From the NCBI GenBank assembly GCA_031285695.1, contig JAITVR010000135.1:1-10602 (forward strand): a DNA stretch of 10,602 bases, read 5' to 3'. The notes beneath the pieces were generated by a model that worked only from the letters and a program-made list of their open reading frames with translations, did no database searches and was not told where the DNA came from. Made by a program: the position numbers and the translations under genes. This DNA is from Prevotellaceae bacterium (GTDB taxonomy: Bacteria; Bacteroidota; Bacteroidia; Bacteroidales; UBA932). Of the stretch, positions 1 to 10,552 are shown one piece after another. Numbering within the stretch: position 1 is the stretch's first letter; every line of letters starts with the position of its first letter.

Positions 1-1104
1 CTGATTTGGATACTGGGCGTGGCCATTATACTGCTCACGCTCATGGGCGGCCTTGAGGGCGTAATTTGGATGGACGTGATTCAAGGCTTCATGCTCATAC
101 TCGGCGGCGTTGCCTGCGCGCTGGTGCTGGTGTTTACGCCTGAAGGCGCGCCGGGAACGGTGTTTCAGGTAATTTCCGAAGGCAGCAAAATCAGCTTTGC
201 GCCCTACGATTGGGATTTTACCAGGCTCACGTTTATCGTCATTGCCATCAACGGTGTTTTTTACGCCATACAAAAGTACGGCACCGACCAAACCATTGTG
301 CAGCGCTACCTTGCCGCCAAAACCGATAAGGACGCCATTCGCGCCTCGCTGTTGGGCGTTTTTCTTAGCGTTCCGCTGTGGGCGCTGTTTATGTTCATAG
401 GCACGGCGCTGTTTGCCTACTACCAACTTTCGCCTGCTGTGCCGCTGCCCGAGGGCACGTTGGCCGAGGGTGTATTTCCGTTTTTCATTGTATCGCAGCT
501 GCCTATTGGCATAAAAGGCTTTATTATTGCAGCGCTGTGTGCGGCGGCTATTTCGAGCTTGGACTCGGATATGAACTGCATTTCGGCGGTGGGCGTTGAG
601 GACTACTACAAGCGGGCTCGCCCCAAAAGCACCGACAAGCAGCAAATGAAAATGGCGCGCATACTGGTGGTGGTGTCGGGCTTGCTGTCGCTGCTGGTGG
701 CTACGCTTTACGTGCGCATGGGCGGCGAGGGCGTGCTGGGCATTGTGTTTGAACTGTACGCCATTTTCTCGGCGGGCATTGCAGGCATGTTTTTGCTCGG
801 GCTATTTAGCCGCAGGGCAAATAAAAAAGGGCTGTACGTGGGCGTGGCGGCCTGCGTGCTGTTTACGGCGTACGCCATGCTTACCTCTACCAAGTTTGAG
901 GTGGACGGCGTGAAGCGCGTGCTGCTCGACTTGGGCAGCTGGAATTTCCCGCACCACAAGTACATGCTGGGCGTGTATAGCCACGTGGTGCTGTTTGGCG
1001 TAGCGTGGGTGGCCAGCCACTTCTTCAAGTCCGAAAAGGTGGACGAACACTACACCATTTACGGATTTTTGAAGCAGAGAAGAGAGGCGAAGAAAATGGG
1101 TTAG
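1..1104 (+). CDS. Sodium/solute symporter (SSS family), 5' end outside window
   Basis: Inner-membrane sodium-coupled symporter of the SSS (SGLT-like) family; the window holds the last 367 codons and the open frame runs through base 1, so the true start lies upstream. Family members in Bacteroidetes are usually 500-550 residues, so roughly the first four or five membrane segments are missing. Visible family marks are the segment around DVIQGFMLILGG, the QRYLAAKTDKDAIRAS loop (QRY is a hallmark of SGLT-type carriers), and AAISSLDSDMNCIS in a later helix. Several hydrophobic helices follow, then a charged cytoplasmic tail ending in EAKKMG. The GH105 and GH28 genes lie downstream on the same strand, which suggests import of a pectin-derived uronate or sugar, possibly an unsaturated galacturonate product or rhamnose. 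The substrate is an inference from neighbours only; the family assignment is firm. Confidence 0.93.
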   Translation: MIWILGVAIILLTLMGGLEGVIWMDVIQGFMLILGGVACALVLVFTPEGAPGTVFQVISEGSKISFAPYDWDFTRLTFIVIAINGVFYAIQKYGTDQTIVQRYLAAKTDKDAIRASLLGVFLSVPLWALFMFIGTALFAYYQLSPAVPLPEGTLAEGVFPFFIVSQLPIGIKGFIIAALCAAAISSLDSDMNCISAVGVEDYYKRARPKSTDKQQMKMARILVVVSGLLSLLVATLYVRMGGEGVLGIVFELYAIFSAGIAGMFLLGLFSRRANKKGLYVGVAACVLFTAYAMLTSTKFEVDGVKRVLLDLGSWNFPHHKYMLGVYSHVVLFGVAWVASHFFKSEKVDEHYTIYGFLKQRREAKKMG

Positions 1105-1109
1105 TTGTT

Positions 1110-1121
1110 AATTATTAATGG
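1110..1121. repeat. Left copy of a 12-bp inverted repeat around the four-helix-bundle gene
   Basis: AATTATTAATGG at 1110-1121 is the exact reverse complement of CCATTAATAATT at 1474-1485. The left copy contains the ATG (1118-1120) of the broken four-helix-bundle gene and the right copy contains its stop codon, so the pair brackets the gene exactly. The sequence is low in complexity, so chance is possible, but the placement is precise. Confidence 0.5.
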
Positions 1122-1480
1122 TAAAGAAAACGAATGTAGTAAAGTAAAAGAGTTTTACATTCGCAATTCGAGTGGTAAAAATATTTCAGTACCTGCAGGA
1201 GCAGAAAAAAGAATTTATCCTGTCAAAGCAGCTGCTGAGGTGTGGAACTTCTGTTGGCGCCATGGTGAGAGAGGCTGAGCACTCGGAAAGTAGAGCAGAC
1301 TTTATTCATAAAATGGCCATTGCGCAAAAGGAGATAAACGAAACAATATATTGGCTGGAGTTGCTAAACGCTACCAACTATTTTAGCGATAAAGAATTTA
1401 AAAGTATAAATGCAGATGCTGTGGAGTTGATTAAAATTATTACCACCATTATTAAATCCGCCAAGGAAAATAACCATTAA
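1118..1480 (+). pseudogene. Four-helix-bundle protein (S23 / 23S rRNA intervening-sequence family), interrupted by an in-frame stop
   Basis: Small protein of the four-helix-bundle family named after proteins encoded in 23S rRNA intervening sequences; its molecular role is not known. Read from ATG 1118 the frame gives MVKKTNVVK, then TAA at 1145-1147, then KSFTFAIRVVKIFQYL and the rest to TAA at 1478-1480. The part after the stop but before the next usable start (GTG 1172) matches the conserved family N-terminus (KSFxFAIRVV), and the total of 120 codons is the normal family length. This means the gene once started at 1118 and was broken by a nonsense change, probably GAA to TAA because Glu or Asp commonly sits there. 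The core QLLRCGTSVGAMVREAEHSES and the Trp-Leu-Glu-Leu helix are intact. A 102-residue product from GTG 1172 is possible but would lack most of helix 1. The gene is more AT-rich than its neighbours and separates the transporter from GH105. Confidence 0.72.
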
Positions 1481-1500
1481 TAATTTACCATTAACCATTA
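1473..1500. repeat. 7-nt-phased ACCATTA repeats and right copy of the 12-bp inverted repeat
   Basis: ACCATTA occurs at 1473-1479, 1487-1493 and 1494-1500, that is, in strict 7-nt phase with one slot degenerate, and TACCATG follows at the GH105 start. The segment also contains CCATTAATAATT (1474-1485), the mate of the repeat at 1110-1121. It forms the end of the four-helix-bundle gene and the spacer to GH105. No promoter is apparent in it. Confidence 0.5.
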
Positions 1501-4269: not shown

Positions 4270-4320
4270 GTAATAAGTAATGGACAATGAGCGGCGTGTT
4301 CATTGTCCATTTTTTATTAC
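4270..4320 (+). terminator. Intrinsic terminator after GH28
   Basis: The arms 4270-4290 and 4300-4320 pair at 19 of 21 positions, including an unbroken 12-bp core (AATGGACAATGA with TCATTGTCCATT), with a 9-nt loop (GCGGCGTGT). The descending arm runs into a tract of six T residues (4310-4315). It sits 11 nt after the GH28 stop codon. Its last bases overlap the putative promoter of the next gene. Confidence 0.88.
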
Positions 4321-4325
4321 CTTTG
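4318..4325 (+). promoter_or_regulatory. Putative Bacteroidetes -7 promoter element for mntA-hepT
   Basis: TACCTTTG is an exact match to the Bacteroidetes sigma-ABfr -7 consensus TAnnTTTG. It lies 5 nt before the chosen mntA ATG at 4331, so transcription would begin at or within a few bases of that codon. No clear TTTG element is seen at the usual -33 spacing. The element begins inside the descending arm of the GH28 terminator. Confidence 0.55.
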
Positions 4326-4330
4326 CCTGC

Positions 4331-4624
4331 ATGATAACCGAAGCGCAAAAGAATATTATCATCAGCACCATACTGCCTTTTCACCCTGTGCGGATAGGCA
4401 TATTTGGCTCCACTGCACGTAACGAGAGTACGGACAGCAGCGATATTGATATTTTGTACCAGCTGAAAAACGCCGTTGGCTTGTTTACGCTTGTGCGCAT
4501 AAAAGATACCTTGGAGGAAAAGCTGCACAAAAAGGTGGACTTGGTTTCAGAAAAGTACGTGAACCCACAGCTGAAGCCCTACATCATGAATGACCTAAAA
4601 GTTATTTACAGCAATGGAGAATAA
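4331..4624 (+). CDS. mntA: MntA-type minimal nucleotidyltransferase antitoxin
   Basis: Cytoplasmic protein of 97 residues with a minimal nucleotidyltransferase fold. In characterised HepT/MntA systems the MntA partner transfers AMP from ATP onto a Tyr of the HEPN toxin and so silences it. The signature GSx10DxD is complete: Gly26-Ser27 followed by Asp38 and Asp40 (FGSTARNESTDSSDIDIL). A third acidic residue, Asp70, sits in KKVDLV, so the active site looks intact. I chose ATG 4331 rather than the in-frame ATG 4280. The earlier start lies inside the terminator hairpin and adds 17 residues that do not resemble the family, and the -7 element sits between the two. The gene overlaps hepT by 11 nt, indicating coupled translation. 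The protein is at the short end for MntA, but typical of small Bacteroidetes versions. Confidence 0.87.
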   Translation: MITEAQKNIIISTILPFHPVRIGIFGSTARNESTDSSDIDILYQLKNAVGLFTLVRIKDTLEEKLHKKVDLVSEKYVNPQLKPYIMNDLKVIYSNGE

Positions 4625-4967
4625 AAACCTGTTTCGGCTAAGGCACATGCTTGACAGCGTTGTGAAAATTGAATACCTAACGCAGCTGCTGTACACGCAA
4701 GACAACTTTGAAAAAAAGTGGGTGGAGCAAGACGCCATTATCCGAAATCTTGAAATTATAGGCGAAGCCTCTGCCAACATTACGGACGAGCTGAAGCAAA
4801 AGTATCCCGATGTTTTGTGGAGGGAAATGAAGGGCATGCGGAACTTTGTTACCCACCAGTACTTTGGGGTAGAGTTGAGCGATATTTGGAGTACCGCCGT
4901 AAACGATATACCGCTGCTCAAAAAGCAAATTCAAGAGATAGTAGAGGGCTTAGAAAGCATAAAATAA
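4614..4967 (+). CDS. hepT: HepT-type HEPN ribonuclease toxin (DUF86)
   Basis: All-helical HEPN protein of 117 residues, toxin partner of the preceding nucleotidyltransferase. HepT toxins are RNases. The active-site motif Rx4HxY is complete in MRNFVTHQYF: Arg76, His81 and Tyr83. Tyr83 is at the position AMPylated by MntA in characterised pairs. The segment DAIIRNLEIIGEAS (residues 40-53) and WREMKGMRN are also standard for DUF86. The start ATG 4614 lies inside the 3' end of mntA (11-nt overlap), so both are read from one transcript. The gene is more AT-rich than the enzyme genes on either side, consistent with independent acquisition. The pair is bounded on the left by the GH28 terminator and on the right by the bidirectional terminator at 5032-5071. 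Confidence 0.9.
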   Translation: MENKNLFRLRHMLDSVVKIEYLTQLLYTQDNFEKKWVEQDAIIRNLEIIGEASANITDELKQKYPDVLWREMKGMRNFVTHQYFGVELSDIWSTAVNDIPLLKKQIQEIVEGLESIK

Positions 4968-4995: not shown

Positions 4996-5031
4996 GATGC
5001 TACCCGCCATCTCGGTTCAATATTTAGCATC
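4996..5031. repeat. 7-bp inverted repeat between hepT and the shared terminator
   Basis: GATGCTA (4996-5002) and TAGCATC (5025-5031) form a perfect 7-bp inverted repeat with a 22-nt spacer, ending directly against the A-tract of the terminator. It could extend the hairpin structure of the transcript end or be coincidental. Nothing else is recognisable in 4968-5031. Confidence 0.3.
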
Positions 5032-5071
5032 AAAAAAAACCCTGTCCCAAGTTTGGGACAGGGTTTTTTTT
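5032..5071. terminator. Bidirectional intrinsic terminator between convergent hepT and GH78
   Basis: The sequence 5032-5050 (eight A, then CCCTGTCCCAA) is the exact reverse complement of 5053-5071 (TTGGGACAGGG, then eight T), with GT between. The GC-rich core CCCTGTCCC/GGGACAGGG is flanked by A8 on the left and T8 on the right, so on either strand the hairpin is followed by a U-tract. It stands between two genes that end toward each other, 64 nt after hepT and 26 nt beyond the GH78 stop. Confidence 0.95.
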
Positions 5072-5097
5072 GCTTGCTGAGAGAGAACTTAGTTCCC

Positions 5098-7896
5098 CTA
5101 CTTTTCGCTGTAGCTAAAGGTGTATTGACCCGAGCCTACCAGTATGCTGCCCTGCGTTAGTATTTTTACGTTGCCGGCAGTTTCTATGGGCGCACCATCA
5201 AGCATAATTTCCACCCCTTCGGCGTAGGGCAGCGCTACGGTGGCGGTGGTATTTACGGGAACGGAAATTTTGAGCGTAAAGGTGCTATTTTCGGTAGTCC
5301 AATTAACCTTTATTTTTCCGTAAAGGGAGTTGTACGAAGCGTTCACGTGTGTCAAATCGCCCACCGGAACGGGCGCTATGCGGAAGTGCTGAAAGCCCGG
5401 CCGCTTTTCGTCGGGCGCAATGCCGGCCAGCGTGTGGAAAAACCACTCCTCAATTTGCCCCAGCATAAAGTGGTTCATTGATGCGCCGTGGCGCGGGTCC
5501 CACTGCTCGGTAAGCGTGCTGAGCCCAAACTTAAGCTGAAAGCCGTACCCCGGCACATCGTAGTGGTTGTGCATGGCGTACATCACATCGTTGTAGCCGT
5601 TGCGCGCCAGCGATTGAAAGAGGTAGCGGTTGCCCACATCGCCCGTGGTAAGGCGGTTGCCGTGCGCCTGCACATCTTTTACAATGTTGAGCAAAACGGC
5701 ATCTCTATTTTGCGGCTCCACAATATTCATAAATAGCGGAATGGCGTTGGAGGTTTGGCTGCCGGTGCCGTACTGCTTACTGTCGCTGTCAAAAAATTTG
5801 GTGTTGAACGCCCAGCGAATATTTTTTGCCAGCGTGGTATATTTTTCCTCGTAATTTTCTTTGCCCAACATGGCGGCGGCCTGCGCCGTGAGCTTGGCAA
5901 GGTAGTAGTAGTGCGCCGTGGCTACGAGCGACACAGGCGTGTTGCGCGAAAGCCCTGCACGAAAATCGCCGTAGTCGTACCAATCGCCCAAGCCGTGCGA
6001 CAAAATGTGCCCTTCGGCGCGGCGGCTGAGGTAGTCCACGTAGCGGCGCATAACGTCAAAGTAGCGCACAATAAGCGTGCTGTCGCCGTAGTACTGGTAG
6101 TACATAAAGGGCACAATTACCGCTGCGCCGCCCCACTCTGGCGAATCGACAAAGCCTTCGCCCCACACGCTCAAGTCGGTGTACTGCGGCACGGTGCTGG
6201 GCACTAATCCCGTGCGGTACTGCCCATCGGCCATGTCCTGCATTGACTTTGGAAAAAACTGCGCAAGGTTGTAGTTGTAAAAAAGTCCGGGGCCGTTGAG
6301 GTGCGTTTGCTCCAGCCAGCCCAACTTTTCGCGCTGCGGACAATCGGTAAACACCGCCTGCATGTTGCTTTTCATGGCGTTGTTGATGAGCCAGTGCGTC
6401 CTATTAAATATTTCGTTAGACGATTCAAACTCGCCCGTTTCCTCCACCGATGCGTAAATAAAATTCGACACAACATCAAGCAGCACGGGCTTTTTCCCCC
6501 TGCTTTCGTCGCGCCACAAGTCCACATTTTCTACCTGCAAATACTGGTAGCCGTAGTACGAAAATCGTGGCGACCACTCCTCCACGCTGTCGCCGCGCAG
6601 CGTGTACTGGTAGTAGTGCGGGCTGCCCGTCTTTTTTTGGTCGGCAAGGCTGTCCTTGGTCAACGATTCCGCAGGATAAATGCGCACCACCTGCCCCGCT
6701 TTTCCCTGCACTTTTATGGTAGGAAATCCCGAAAGATTTTGCCCCATATCGAGCACGTACGCGTTCTTTTTTGGCGCTATAACATGCTTTACATCGTACT
6801 GCTGCATTACTTTTACCGAGGGCATAAGCTGCGCGCGCAGCCTGCCCGTGGGCGACTCCTGCACTACTGCCGAAAGCCATGTGCTGTCGTCAAATTCGGG
6901 CGTATCCCAACCGTCCTGTTCGAGCAGCGCGTTGTAATCTTCGCCGCCGTAAATGCTGTTGTAGGTAATGGGGCTGGGCGAAAATTTCCACGTATTGTCC
7001 GAAATAACGGTGGACGAAGTGCCGTCGGTGTAGTCAACCTCCATGCGGAAAAAGAGCGTTGGTGGGCCAAAGCTGCGCAGCAACTTGTGGTAGCGCGCCA
7101 GCTCCGCCTCGTTGTAAAAACCGTTGCCCAGCAGCACGCCTACAGCGTTTGCGCCTGCCGAAAGCAGCGTATCCACATTGTAAATGTTGTAGTAAATTGT
7201 TTTGTCGTAATCGCTCCACGCCGGCGCAAAAATGCTGCTGCCCACGCGCTTTCCGTTAATGCTTAGCTCGTAGCTGCCCAGTCCCGAAACGTACACCATG
7301 GCGCGCTTTATCGTTTTTTTACTTATGTCAAAATTTTTGCGCAGCATGATGCTTCGCTTCGCAAGCGTATCCACCTTGGCAAAAAGCGTGTCGTAGCCGT
7401 GCTTTTTGAAGGGTGGCGTGTACGATTTTCCTTCGGGCAAATGGCTGTCCGCTTTTTTAATAGCGCCAATCCAGCGCACGTTTACCTCGTTAATTACGGG
7501 CGCCACATCAAGCTGCTGCACGCTGCTCCACGCCGATGGTTGGCCTGCCACATCGCGCGCCATCACGCGCCAGTAGTAGCGTTCGCCTGCCTTCAACTTT
7601 TTTCCGCCGTAGCTTACCAGCTGACTTTTTCCCGATTTTACCTCGTGGCTATCCCACACATTTCCCAACTTTTTTTCAGCATTCGCCTTGCTCGACGACA
7701 CAATAATTCGGTACGCCGTTTGCCTATCGCCCTGCGTAAATGACGTTAGCTGCCAGCCAAAGCGAACCTGCGATGCGCTAATGCCCATCGGGTTTTGCAG
7801 CATTTCGCAGGTGGGATTTTTTACTTCCATAGCTTGCGCAAAAAAGCTGCCGGCAAGCGTGGCAAAAAGAAAAATTGTACGGTAAAAACGGGTCAT
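5098..7896 (-). CDS. GH78 alpha-L-rhamnosidase, exported
   Basis: Exported alpha-L-rhamnosidase of 932 residues, family GH78, which releases terminal L-rhamnose from pectic side chains or glycosides. The N-terminus is a signal peptidase I signal ending AQA (residues 20-22), without a lipobox Cys, unlike the other enzymes here. Domains by position: an FN3/Ig-like domain with PTCEMLQNPMGI (about 25-130), a beta-sandwich N-domain (about 170-350, with YVSGLGSYELSINGKRVG), a second beta domain (about 360-480), the (alpha/alpha)6 catalytic barrel (about 490-830) and a C-terminal beta domain. DCPQREKLGW (518-527) supplies the probable general acid Glu523, and TLTEQWD supplies the probable general base Glu797; both are at the positions known from characterised GH78 enzymes. 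WGEGFVDSPEWGG is also characteristic. It is the last gene of the minus-strand arm, 98 nt after the GH43 gene. The best-known Bacteroidetes relatives act on rhamnogalacturonan; the exact linkage is not visible. Confidence 0.95.
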   Translation of the reverse strand: MTRFYRTIFLFATLAGSFFAQAMEVKNPTCEMLQNPMGISASQVRFGWQLTSFTQGDRQTAYRIIVSSSKANAEKKLGNVWDSHEVKSGKSQLVSYGGKKLKAGERYYWRVMARDVAGQPSAWSSVQQLDVAPVINEVNVRWIGAIKKADSHLPEGKSYTPPFKKHGYDTLFAKVDTLAKRSIMLRKNFDISKKTIKRAMVYVSGLGSYELSINGKRVGSSIFAPAWSDYDKTIYYNIYNVDTLLSAGANAVGVLLGNGFYNEAELARYHKLLRSFGPPTLFFRMEVDYTDGTSSTVISDNTWKFSPSPITYNSIYGGEDYNALLEQDGWDTPEFDDSTWLSAVVQESPTGRLRAQLMPSVKVMQQYDVKHVIAPKKNAYVLDMGQNLSGFPTIKVQGKAGQVVRIYPAESLTKDSLADQKKTGSPHYYQYTLRGDSVEEWSPRFSYYGYQYLQVENVDLWRDESRGKKPVLLDVVSNFIYASVEETGEFESSNEIFNRTHWLINNAMKSNMQAVFTDCPQREKLGWLEQTHLNGPGLFYNYNLAQFFPKSMQDMADGQYRTGLVPSTVPQYTDLSVWGEGFVDSPEWGGAAVIVPFMYYQYYGDSTLIVRYFDVMRRYVDYLSRRAEGHILSHGLGDWYDYGDFRAGLSRNTPVSLVATAHYYYLAKLTAQAAAMLGKENYEEKYTTLAKNIRWAFNTKFFDSDSKQYGTGSQTSNAIPLFMNIVEPQNRDAVLLNIVKDVQAHGNRLTTGDVGNRYLFQSLARNGYNDVMYAMHNHYDVPGYGFQLKFGLSTLTEQWDPRHGASMNHFMLGQIEEWFFHTLAGIAPDEKRPGFQHFRIAPVPVGDLTHVNASYNSLYGKIKVNWTTENSTFTLKISVPVNTTATVALPYAEGVEIMLDGAPIETAGNVKILTQGSILVGSGQYTFSYSEK

Positions 7897-7916: not shown

Positions 7917-7990
7917 TTTAAGAAGATTAAGAAGTCTAAGAATTTTAGGAAGTTTTCTCTTCTTAATCTTCCTAAAATTCCTAAACTTCT
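7917..7990. repeat. Palindromic 9-nt-period repeat element A, in the GH43-GH78 spacer
   Basis: The left half consists of four 9-nt units in exact phase: TTTAAGAAG (7917), ATTAAGAAG (7926), TCTAAGAAT (7935), TTTAGGAAG (7944). The right half carries three inverted units: TTCTTAATC (7960), TTCCTAAAA (7969), TTCCTAAAC (7978). As a hairpin, 7931-7952 pairs with 7968-7989 at 20 of 22 positions, leaving a 15-nt loop. On the minus-strand transcript the hairpin begins a few bases after the GH43 stop codon and ends before GH78. A T-tract follows only on the plus strand, so it is not a simple terminator for the genes that cross it. It could stabilise or process the operon mRNA. Confidence 0.85.
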
Positions 7991-7994
7991 TTTT

Positions 7995-8963
7995 TTACAT
8001 TGTCAAGGTTGACGTTTCCTGTGCTTCGGCTTTTTCCTCTTCGCACAGCAGCTTGGCGGCGGCAGCCTGCAAGGTTTTCAGCTGGCTTTCGGTAACCATA
8101 AAAATGGTGCCGTGCTTGTGCGCTTTCGGCACGCTGATTTTTTCCGAAACATCGGTAAAGGTTTTAAAATCGCTGGTAAAATGCGCGCCAAAGCGGAATT
8201 GCCTGTACGCATCGTAGTAAATAAGCCAGCCGCCCTCAACCTTTGCCCAGGTGGGGCCTTCGGAATATTCGGGTGCAAACGATTCGGTTTCGCCACTCCA
8301 CGGACCAGTTGGTGTTGCGCCAAAAGCCAAGTGCAGATTGCTGTAGCCGGGCTTGCGGTTGTCCTTTACCACCAGCACGTAATCGTCCTTGCCGCGCTGC
8401 ATTACCGCGCCGTCAATGGAGTTGTAGCCCGGGTCATAAAAAAGTGCAGCGGGCGCAAATGTTTCAAAATCTTTGGTAGTAGTAAAGTACTGCCGCTGCG
8501 AACCGTCAAACCGCGCAGGGCTTGACGATGACCAGGCAATGCTAAACTCGCTGCGCGCGCTGTCGTAAAATAATTCCGGCGCCCAAGTGTTGCGAAAAGT
8601 GGTGTCGTAATCGTTTACCGGCACGTGCCGCTGCGCGCTCCAATTCACCAAATCCTTGGAGTGCGCGTAGCCAAAGCCAAGGTCGTTTTTCCAGCTGCTT
8701 GTCCACACCAAGTGAAAAGTGCCATCGGGGCCAACCACAATCGAAGGGTCGCGCATTATCTTTTGCGTACCCACTTCGGGGTGCAAAAATGAGGTTACGC
8801 CAAAGTCTTCCCACTTGTAGCCATCGCGGCTGTAAATGAAGCGCAAGCCGCTATCGGCAGGCTCACGAAAGCCGGTCATTACGTAAATATTGCGGGGTTC
8901 TTTTTTCGTTTCACACGAGGCAAAAACCGCAGCACAAATGATGAGGAGTAAAAGTTTTTTCAT
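7995..8963 (-). CDS. GH43-type glycoside hydrolase (probable arabinofuranosidase or related), lipoprotein
   Basis: Predicted lipoprotein of 322 residues with the five-bladed beta-propeller pattern of glycoside hydrolase family 43 (clan GH-F). The signal ends in AAVFASC with Cys17. The three expected acidic residues appear in order and at family-like spacing: Asp72 in MRDPSI (general base), Asp184 in NSIDGAV (pKa modulator) and Glu235 in SEGPTW (general acid). TWAPELFYD (126-134) is the conserved WAPE/D segment. GH43 members mostly release L-arabinofuranose, D-xylose or D-galactose. Beside GH140 and GH78 an arabinofuranosidase acting on pectin side chains is the best guess, but the subfamily is not decided. 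The C-terminal tail is Ala/Glu-rich (EEEKAEAQETSTLTM) and probably disordered. It sits between GH140 and GH78 in one minus-strand operon, with a repeat element on each side. The start is the ATG that opens the lipoprotein signal. Confidence 0.85.
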   Translation of the reverse strand: MKKLLLLIICAAVFASCETKKEPRNIYVMTGFREPADSGLRFIYSRDGYKWEDFGVTSFLHPEVGTQKIMRDPSIVVGPDGTFHLVWTSSWKNDLGFGYAHSKDLVNWSAQRHVPVNDYDTTFRNTWAPELFYDSARSEFSIAWSSSSPARFDGSQRQYFTTTKDFETFAPAALFYDPGYNSIDGAVMQRGKDDYVLVVKDNRKPGYSNLHLAFGATPTGPWSGETESFAPEYSEGPTWAKVEGGWLIYYDAYRQFRFGAHFTSDFKTFTDVSEKISVPKAHKHGTIFMVTESQLKTLQAAAAKLLCEEEKAEAQETSTLTM

Positions 8964-8970
8964 AGTAAAA

Positions 8971-9047
8971 AAGAAGTTTAAGAAGTTTAGGAAGATTAGG
9001 AATTTCTTATTCTTCTTAGACTTCCTAATCTTCTTAATCTTCTAATC
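8971..9047. repeat. Palindromic 9-nt-period repeat element B, in the GH140-GH43 spacer
   Basis: Left units in exact 9-nt phase are TTTAAGAAG (8977), TTTAGGAAG (8986) and ATTAGGAAT (8995), preceded by AAGAAG. Inverted right units are CTTCTTAGA (9012), CTTCCTAAT (9021), CTTCTTAAT (9030) and CTTCTAATC (9039). Arms 8973-9002 and 9013-9042 pair at 25 of 30 positions with a 10-nt loop. The element fills almost the whole spacer between the GH140 stop and the GH43 start. It is built from the same unit as the element at 7917-7990, so the two are copies or products of the same process. Confidence 0.85.
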
Positions 9048-9055
9048 TTGTGTTC

Positions 9056-10507
9056 TTAAATCATATCCAAAATCAGCACCCAGTCGTTGCCGTCCTTAAC
9101 TTCGGGCACAGGAGTAACAAAGGTTACCGCATTGTTGTTATTTTTATCTACAACAACTTGCGTTCCCTCAGTTATCTCGCCGTTGCGGGGGTTGAACCAC
9201 GAGGCTTTTACTTTTACCTGTTCGCCGTTTTTGCTTAGCTTATCAGTATTTACCTTCACTTCGCCACCTCTGTAGGTGTAGAAAAATGCGTACTTTTCAC
9301 CGCGCGTAGCCTGAATGTGGTCGTACTTTTCGCCCTGATTTGCCACAAGCGAGTTGTCCGGAACGCGCTCCAAAAATGGGCGCGACAGCATCAAGTTTTT
9401 CATGTACTGCATTTGCGAAGCGCCTTCGGCGTTCAGCGCATCGGTCCACAGCGTGGTGGCAAGGTAGGCGCCGGGTTTTTTGTCCTCGGGGCGCAGCATT
9501 TGCATGATAGAGGTGTGGCCGTAGGTAAAGCCAAATGCACCGGCAAATACCGACCAGTAGGCGTAACGGCGCACGTCTGCGGGCTTCCACAGCGGCTGCT
9601 GCATACCCTTGGTGTAGTTTTTGGGGCGCAGGTCGGTGCGCTTGTCCCAATCGTGCAGCCCCTGCGGAATTTCTTCATACGAGGGCTCGCCGTCCACCGT
9701 AGGTTTTGCAGGCGTCATGTTGTAGTCGGTGGTAATGTGCTTCCACGTGTCTTGGCCAATGCCGTTGGGGTCTTGCTCGTAGGTGCGGTGTCCGGATTGC
9801 ACCATGTTGAAATCCAACCACGGTGCGTTGTGAAACCAAATGCTTGAGCGCGAACGACCAAAAGGGTGATACGTTATAAGGTGGTTGGGCGCGTACTGGC
9901 GCAGCGTATTTCCTATAATGTTCCACGTTTCGGTAGAGTCGGTGCCCATCACATCGCCGCCGTTCATCCACACCACGTTGTTGCGGTTGGCGTAGCGTTC
10001 GCCCAAAAATTTTGCGTAAGCGGCAGCCTGTGCACGGCTTACCTTTCCGCCCTTTACGTTGGTGCCCCACACGGGTACAATGGCCACGTAAATTCCCTTT
10101 TCGGCAGCAAGGTCAACCGCGTAATCCACGTGGTCCCAGTAGTCGTACTGAACCGAATCGGCGGGGTTATTTCCCTCGGTAACAATCGGTTTCGAGGCAT
10201 CGGCATTTTCTACCGCCTGGCGTCCGTACACATTTTTCACGTTCAAGCCGTGCAGCACCGAGGTTTGCACTACGTTAAAGCCCAGCTGACGGCGATTTTC
10301 CAAGTACTGCTCCGTTTGCTCGCGGTTGAGCCTCGATAGCAGCCAGCCCGTATCGCCCAGCCACATAAAAGGTTTGCCATCGGCGGTAACCAAAAAACGT
10401 TGGTTTTCCGACACCTTCAGCGCCTGAATTTCCTGTTTCTTTTCGCCCGAAGAGCAGGCGCTCAACAGCGCAGCTACGGCCATAGCCGCAAAAATTTTGA
10501 GTTTCAT
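9056..10507 (-). CDS. GH140 apiosidase-like glycoside hydrolase (DUF4038), lipoprotein
   Basis: Predicted lipoprotein of 483 residues in glycoside hydrolase family 140, whose characterised member in Bacteroides thetaiotaomicron (BT1012) cleaves the apiose link of rhamnogalacturonan-II side chains to the backbone. The signal ends in AALLSAC with Cys18. The catalytic (beta/alpha)8 barrel starts with FLVTADGKPFMWLGDTGW (38-55). Asp185 in VVWMNGGDV is the likely acid/base and Glu274 in VDGEPSYE the likely nucleophile; both fit the positions expected for the family. A small C-terminal beta domain (about 390-483), ending in WVLILDMI, matches the collagen-binding-like domain that usually follows. 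ATG 10507 is preferred over GTG 10510 because the Lys-rich signal begins right there and ATG is the more usual start. It is the first gene of the minus-strand operon, with a putative promoter about 45 nt upstream. Confidence 0.92.
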   Translation of the reverse strand: MKLKIFAAMAVAALLSACSSGEKKQEIQALKVSENQRFLVTADGKPFMWLGDTGWLLSRLNREQTEQYLENRRQLGFNVVQTSVLHGLNVKNVYGRQAVENADASKPIVTEGNNPADSVQYDYWDHVDYAVDLAAEKGIYVAIVPVWGTNVKGGKVSRAQAAAYAKFLGERYANRNNVVWMNGGDVMGTDSTETWNIIGNTLRQYAPNHLITYHPFGRSRSSIWFHNAPWLDFNMVQSGHRTYEQDPNGIGQDTWKHITTDYNMTPAKPTVDGEPSYEEIPQGLHDWDKRTDLRPKNYTKGMQQPLWKPADVRRYAYWSVFAGAFGFTYGHTSIMQMLRPEDKKPGAYLATTLWTDALNAEGASQMQYMKNLMLSRPFLERVPDNSLVANQGEKYDHIQATRGEKYAFFYTYRGGEVKVNTDKLSKNGEQVKVKASWFNPRNGEITEGTQVVVDKNNNNAVTFVTPVPEVKDGNDWVLILDMI

Positions 10508-10552
10508 CACAAAAAAAATTAATTATTTATAAATAGAAAAAGACTTAGCGAG

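Follow-up and report, generated by a model that had tools for sequence, protein, structure and literature searches.

Phased nine-nucleotide palindromes between glycoside hydrolase genes and the association of such arrays with genes for 23S rRNA intervening-sequence proteins

What are the long palindromes that fill both spacers of an operon for glycoside hydrolases, and how did they come to lie there? The window analysed here, a stretch of 10,602 nucleotides, is contig C129 of the MAG G000 (1.48 Mb in 255 contigs, 77% complete). Its minus strand carries an apiosidase-like gene (9056..10510; PF13204, labelled GH140 in the first-pass annotation) followed by a GH43-type gene (7995..8963) and a GH78-type alpha-L-rhamnosidase gene (5098..7896). 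Palindrome B (8969..9046), downstream of the apiosidase-like gene, occupies most of the 92-nt spacer in front of the GH43-type gene, and palindrome A (7918..7993) most of the 98-nt spacer between the GH43-type and the GH78-type gene. In A, phased 9-nt units start at 7918 on the plus strand and are followed by a loop (7956-7964) and inverted units to 7993; B has the same layout around a loop at 9003-9012. The first-pass annotation had described this construction for both spacers, and both palindromes were located as described: TTARGAAGWTTARGAAG with at most three mismatches matched 13 times in the window (0.16 expected from shuffles). The long stems that it gave as 20/22 and 25/30 are also present, with slightly different counts, the best ungapped arms being 7929-7955/7965-7991 for A (24/27 complementary, 9-nt loop) and 8972-9002/9013-9043 for B (26/31 complementary, 10-nt loop).

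Phased palindromes in the window and in the genome

RNA folding of the minus (transcribed) strand, which had been suggested as a check, gave strong structures for both A (z = -5.4; 24 uninterrupted pairs including G-U) and B (z = -4.7); together with the excess of unit matches this rules out chance as the origin of the two palindromes. On the minus strand the 3' arm of B runs out into TTTTTT (complementary to 8967-8972), just short of the GH43 start codon; the earlier statement that no T-tract follows either palindrome on the transcribed strand is therefore true for A and false for B. A consensus terminator scan had no match at A or B, both of which have AT-rich stems; the scan accepts loops of 3-8 nt only and requires three G-C pairs, and the 10-nt loop of B would therefore escape it. 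Rfam at the gathering threshold likewise returned no match for the palindromes. A and B themselves contain no gene and are read here as ORF-less elements.

A search of the whole genome with the unit pair (at most two mismatches) yielded 84 forward and 90 reverse matches compared with 1 and 3 for the reversed control pattern. A and B thus have many further copies and, as the first-pass annotation had supposed, are members of one element family. A first set of 41 contigs (271,688 bases, 0.27 Mb; 33 of them, the window included, picked for matches and eight by number only) holds 39 clusters, a count that includes L063, where the cluster consists of the sister unit AAAGTTTRT; two arms of at least 20 nt are present in 31. 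Each arm is made up of three or four 9-nt units of about WYTARGAAG, in which three sites vary freely. When units were selected without regard to the site under test, positions 4, 6, 7 and 8 are 82-93% fixed, position 1 is A/T in 93%, position 2 is T/C in 90%, position 5 is A/G in 94%, and at positions 3 and 9 the main base accounts for 62%; an earlier estimate of 90-99% for the fixed sites was partly built in by the search pattern. By eye, the unit that faces the loop often ends in T and not in G.

The elements occur in many unrelated operons. Among the 39 clusters 32 lie between codirectional genes, two between convergent and two between divergent genes, two at contig edges and one was misclassified; L070 was counted as 'inside' solely through a tally rule. 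Since 114 of 150 background gaps of at least 60 nt are also codirectional, orientation alone is no strong signal. In the 25 codirectional two-armed cases the element starts a median of 12 nt past the stop codon and ends a median of 32 nt before the next start, using gene calls from a simple gene caller of our own. Same-genus genomes are nearly devoid of the unit: at one mismatch or less the unit pair has 44 + 55 matches in G000, none in nine of ten same-genus genomes, and five, in a different layout, in the tenth (G007). In G007 (L200:840-1640) a GxxExxY gene (TIGR04256) lies between near-identical direct repeats containing GATTAAGAT and AAAATCACA 9-nt units, possibly a parallel element class with another gene.

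The 9-nt palindromes have company. In a survey of spacers of 40-600 nt on 59 contigs (0.40 Mb), 98 of 229 were palindromic (on the 19 contigs taken by number alone, 28 of 67), while shuffled spacers and coding windows gave 0/229 each. By eye, the 98 include many phased arrays built from different units of 7, 8 or 9 nt; others are unphased REP-like repeats or terminator-like. Spacers between divergent genes are palindromic less often than the others (6/29 vs 92/200, p = 0.015). Moreover, palindromes can be nested: a 9-nt palindrome is centred in a 7-nt palindrome on a common axis in five clear cases out of 30 (six at p ≤ 0.01). The unphased palindromes TGTCATTGCGGGCTTGACCCGCAATCC and TGTCATTCTGAGC...GAAGAATCTC, which recur in spacers of G000 (L067:494-582, L073:7242-7322, L212:7666-7745 and others), look like ordinary REP-like repeats. 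Elsewhere in the window, two convergent genes are separated by a perfect inverted repeat of 20 bp that has A/T tails (5031-5072) and is probably an ordinary bidirectional terminator, and a nucleotidyltransferase/HepT-like gene pair (4280-4967; MntA and HepT profiles matched below cut-off), with a 7-nt-type palindrome at its start (4270-4320), resembles a type VII toxin-antitoxin pair.

IVP genes and their flanking arrays

The window also contains a gene (1172..1480, plus strand) for a four-helix-bundle '23S rRNA intervening-sequence protein' (PF05635/TIGR02436; hereafter IVP), to which the first-pass annotation drew no connection from the palindromes. This gene-bearing relative has a left arm of 7-nt type with a TTAATKR-like unit (1099..1122, plus strand) that pairs with an inverted right arm (1473..1496) at 88% complementarity. 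The profile match (1133-1444) spans one stop codon, so that this copy may be decayed or start late. On contig C155 a lone 9-nt arm adjoins a 'four helix bundle protein' gene (TIGR02436): the few bases 5' of its start, at the contig end, are an inverted unit of about WYTARGAAG.

G000 has ten PF05635 matches, nine of them above cut-off, compared with 0-4 in each of the ten same-genus genomes; mere presence says little, since 13 of 17 genomes of the group have IVP genes. By eye, the flanks of the IVP genes in G000 are inverted phased arrays, mostly with one unit per gene (C75 partial). We aligned upstream and downstream flanks as inverted complements and took the 99th percentile of 2,998 cross-genome pairings as the limit, which was exceeded by 30 of 57 IVP loci compared with 4 of 160 other genes; the remaining 27 IVP loci stayed below it. 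Two of the four passing control genes, the GH43-type gene of the window and one in L082, sit between two 9-nt palindromes, and the 160 controls include the IVP gene of the window itself (score 18, limit 21). The 57 loci represent 57 of 86 distinct matches, those left out being mostly without a locus or weak, with one stronger (L188). The association of IVP genes with inverted arrays is thus well supported.

Do the arms belong to the IVP lineage? Over 1,303 between-genome pairs of 53 IVPs, the similarity of the proteins was correlated with that of their arms at r = 0.22 (Spearman 0.10), a value of r reached by 0 of 2,000 permutations. Sixteen pairs have an IVP similarity of at least 0.65 (three within one genome); 14 lack homology in the outer flanks available, and about 12 of these have, by eye, the same or almost the same unit, although they belong to a small number of groups and are not independent. 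IVPs that are related but lie at unrelated sites thus tend to have arm units in common, e.g. the TTAATGR-like unit of the window IVP and of IVPs at unrelated loci in G002, G008 and G039, or the two IVP-element copies L195 and L196 of G000, which are 81% identical over 421 nt at unrelated sites. Conversely, L198 (G000), L214 (G063) and L340 (G320, by eye) have similar IVPs after one and the same gene with arms of differing sequence; arms may have been rewritten in place, or the site may have been targeted repeatedly. The arms at L214 look direct rather than inverted.

The IVP of C155, chosen for its 9-nt arms, has homologues at E ≤ 1e-25 in 24 of 393 genomes of the order (its own included). The arms of this clade are GAAG-rich (5.6 per 300 nt at 27 other loci vs 2.05 at 56 other IVPs, p = 3.6e-6; CTTC 0.48), also in other families. 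At 24 of the 27 loci own flanks were compared with cross-pairings, which here share the unit, and exceeded their 99th percentile in 5/24 and their 95th in 12/24. Using the widened pattern GAAGWYWARGAAGWYWARGAAG, nine other genomes had at least 10 matches, and a clade IVP is present in six of these nine vs 17 of 383 (Fisher p = 1.6e-6, kinship ignored; the threshold of 10 was chosen after the counts were seen, and G419 was kept in the table although its matches are another repeat, of GAAGAGAAAGAAG type and coding-looking by eye). G127, which has no clade IVP, has 11 IVP matches, and its locus L353 is a complete 9-nt element whose loop contains an IVP gene; in G297 an IVP gene lies between 9-nt units. 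The true exception is G332, with 71 pattern matches and an IVP match only below cut-off.

Within G000, the arms of six of the ten own IVPs recur in ORF-less palindromic spacers (19, 7, 3, 3, 2 and 2 of the 98; shuffled arms 0), the 19 being those matched by the arms of the C155 IVP. The arms of the other four, that of the window included, had no match among ORF-less palindromes in the contigs examined. IVP arms from other genomes matched on average 0.64 spacers of G000 compared with 3.6 for own arms (p = 0.012), in a set of contigs partly chosen for the 9-nt unit.

A contig scan across many phyla gave 53 stretches among the matches listed; by eye, about 15 of them, from seven genomes, consist of 9-nt units phased and inverted as in A and B, and the remainder are hairpins of different kinds. 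IVP genes are present in all seven (and in G033, the same genome as one of the seven); the IVP search covered precisely these genomes and is no association test. In three acidobacterial MAGs, Pyrinomonadaceae SSF56, Acidobacteria 5-1 and SZAS-13 (loci L099, L121, L129, L139; L101, L110, L119; L114, L117, L140), 9-nt palindromes of TYTRGGAAG type occur together with seven to nine IVP matches each.

Taking these data together, we favour the reading of A and B as MITE-like elements without an ORF that belong to a family of small hairpins linked to IVP genes, with the IVP as the inferred mover, and we put its probability at roughly 0.6.

Gain, loss and alternative origins

Among other possibilities, the first-pass annotation had considered a MITE-like mobile spacer, and several findings agree with this: the many copies, the dispersed gene-bearing relatives, and spacers that are empty or differently filled in relatives. 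Specifically, what we take to be the korA-korB spacer holds a nested element in G000, is short in G001, G002, G007 and G008, and contains other, mostly phased sequence in G003, G005, G009 and G010 (by eye); the spacer that we take to be araA-araB has a 9-nt element in G000 and about 20 nt in G002. These empty-site comparisons cover the two latter spacers rather than A and B; for the GH43-type gene, a homologue search in the genus gave none above 50% identity among the matches listed. Near-identical contigs also differ. C57 and C155 are 94% and 98% identical on either side of one spacer that holds different palindromes, and C32 and C227 (93%) have one common element, with the divergence mostly inside it. 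The contig pairs L060/L088 and L065/L078 are 93-98% identical, which indicates that the MAG is a mixture of closely related strains or contains near copies. No target-site duplication or precise ends were recognised by eye in L195/L196 or in the spacer alignments, and no transposition event was seen in the spacer comparisons; the differences are signs of gain, loss or replacement, rather than proof of transposition.

The alternative that fares best, even if we regard it as unlikely, is that the palindromes are selected hairpins in the operon mRNA, which would serve as processing sites, protect 3' ends or set enzyme levels by attenuation. The strong folding of A and B, the six U residues after B on the transcribed strand and the lower frequency of palindromic spacers between divergent genes would all fit. 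Own-arm duplexes are moreover stronger than swapped-arm duplexes (mean -23.5 vs -20.7 kcal/mol, z = -4.1), so that pairing may matter too; the arm edges in this comparison were set by each element's own best axis, and the true partner arm had a median rank of 8th of 31 among swapped arms. Covariation between the arms, proposed earlier as a check and examined here among the copies in G000, is however weak. In 57 aligned unit pairs, with the arm register chosen for best match, which favours agreement, the free A/G site agrees in 61% vs 53% when shuffled (p = 0.14) and the free dinucleotide in 42% vs 32% (p = 0.05), so that conservation is stricter for the unit than for pairing. Mismatches compatible with G-U pairing have no strand preference (34 sense vs 35 antisense), there is no Rfam match, copies lie in unrelated operons, and corresponding spacers are empty or hold other sequence in relatives, and hold different palindromes in contigs that are nearly identical. 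A role specific to the glycoside hydrolase operon, as once envisaged, thus finds no support in the unrelated settings, the weak match at free sites or the balance of G-U mismatches. Given that the hairpins fold well and divergent spacers are depleted, some effect on mRNA is conceivable.

Improbable as well is a neutral local process, in which slippage and template switching would build and rewrite periodic palindromes in AT-rich spacers and the IVP link would be secondary, with IVP elements targeting palindromes. It would account for the many unit types within one genome, the nested palindromes, the similar IVPs at one site with differing arms, the arrays that differ between near-identical contigs and the situation in G332. 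It does not predict that one unit rule holds at dozens of unlinked places, that shuffled spacers and coding windows are free of such palindromes, or that related IVPs at unrelated sites tend toward a common unit.

REP/REPIN elements moved by a RAYT (Y1) transposase are a much weaker candidate. REPINs are small hairpin elements thought to be moved by a separate gene (PMC3116915, in the part available), and this known pairing of a hairpin with a partner gene and the interspersion of hairpins in spacers are reminiscent of the present case, but G000 (77% complete) has no Y1_Tnp match, and Y1_Tnp occurs in 20 of 30 relatives, yet those of the same genus are nearly without the 9-nt unit. A REP in the strict RAYT sense, which the first-pass annotation had allowed for, is consequently not supported. 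Least credible of all is the reading of the arrays as sites to which a host regulator binds on DNA or RNA, a role proposed for TAACTGA repeats (PMC4679880, in the part available), since the unit conserved beyond pairing and the proximity of arrays to the next start codon (median 32 nt) are outweighed by the inverted layout, the unrelated operons, the near absence of the unit from same-genus relatives and the variable filling between near-identical contigs.

The proposed IVP-linked family and known systems

In the IVP-linked family to which A and B would belong, a full member would consist of a short degenerate unit repeated in phase (the unit being of 9 nt in A and B and of 7 and 8 nt in sister families), a loop and the inverted array, and a single small gene, coding for a four-helix-bundle protein of IVP type, may be present in the loop. 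Such elements would settle in short intergenic spacers, mostly within operons; they would rarely enter divergent (promoter) spacers, and at times they would insert into the middle of another palindrome. If the IVP recognised the unit and not the exact hairpin, this would explain why unit positions are fixed while the arms are free to mismatch. The family would be mobile through the IVP, which may move gene-bearing elements in cis and act in trans on copies that lack an ORF, A and B among them. By analogy with the way Avd works in diversity-generating retroelements, copying might proceed via RNA or a single-stranded hairpin, possibly with the help of a reverse transcriptase encoded elsewhere. 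PF05635 resembles Avd (PMC10053308, in the part available), and the C155 IVP, compared by protein alone, matches the Avd profile NF033474 below cut-off (E = 6.5e-8). A solved relative of the C155 IVP is XCC0516 (PDB 2gsc; E = 5e-16), which consists of five four-helix bundles according to a reference title in PMC10053308.

The nearest precedent is provided by the 23S rRNA intervening sequences (IVSs), e.g. of Coxiella, with an inverted-repeat stem and an S23p gene for which a role in mobility was proposed (PMC4990558, in the part available). Both systems have an inverted-repeat stem around a loop (here A, B and 30/57 IVP loci) and a loop gene of the PF05635 family (here C155, window 1099-1496 and L353), and the available text of PMC4990558 has the IVS stem replace an rRNA hairpin loop, as elements here can occupy the centre of another palindrome. 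The present elements differ in lying between protein-coding genes, in having arms that are phased arrays of a degenerate unit and in their frequent ORF-less copies; A and B, between glycoside hydrolase genes and not in a 23S rRNA helix, are therefore not IVSs in the strict sense. With MITEs and REPIN/RAYT systems they share being short, non-coding, inverted and dispersed in many copies in spacers, and with MITEs also that ORF-less arms are common to a gene-bearing member of G000 (the C155 IVP); unlike in both, the arms are arrays of 7-9-nt units, and we found no RAYT match in the MAG and saw no target duplication. The TAACTGA heptamer repeats and related arrays of Cyanobacteria and Bacteroidetes (MacGregor 2015; PMC4679880) are, in the part of that paper available, phased units in spacers near start codons with a patchy distribution across distant phyla. 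The elements described here too are short phased units in spacers near start codons, but inverted, whereas the TAACTGA repeats are direct (one inverted set is reported in the same part); the terms four helix, S23, intervening and palindrom are absent from the text of PMC4679880 available. Among titles and abstract openings, with the subscription literature mostly outside reach, we found none that joins PF05635 to palindromic arrays outside rRNA, and a literature search with the string TTTAGGAAG gave unrelated titles among the matches listed.

A broader proposal is more tentative, and we consider it possible rather than probable: that the elements represent a widespread and undescribed class of mobile element, i.e. 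a hairpin of degenerate units whose sole gene, if any, encodes an Avd-like IVP that reads the unit and copies the hairpin, perhaps via RNA and a borrowed reverse transcriptase. Each IVP lineage would have its own unit, ORF-less copies would populate operon spacers of several phyla, and the 23S rRNA IVSs would be a special case that was noticed first. If the IVP-linked reading is right, a function would be assigned to the PF05635 'four helix bundle protein', common but of unclear function outside rRNA, and the many periodic palindromes in operon spacers that have lacked an explanation could be traced to its gene. Moreover, the old proposal that the IVS gene is a mobility component would become directly testable, and the elements would be one way in which the spacers within an operon change rapidly.
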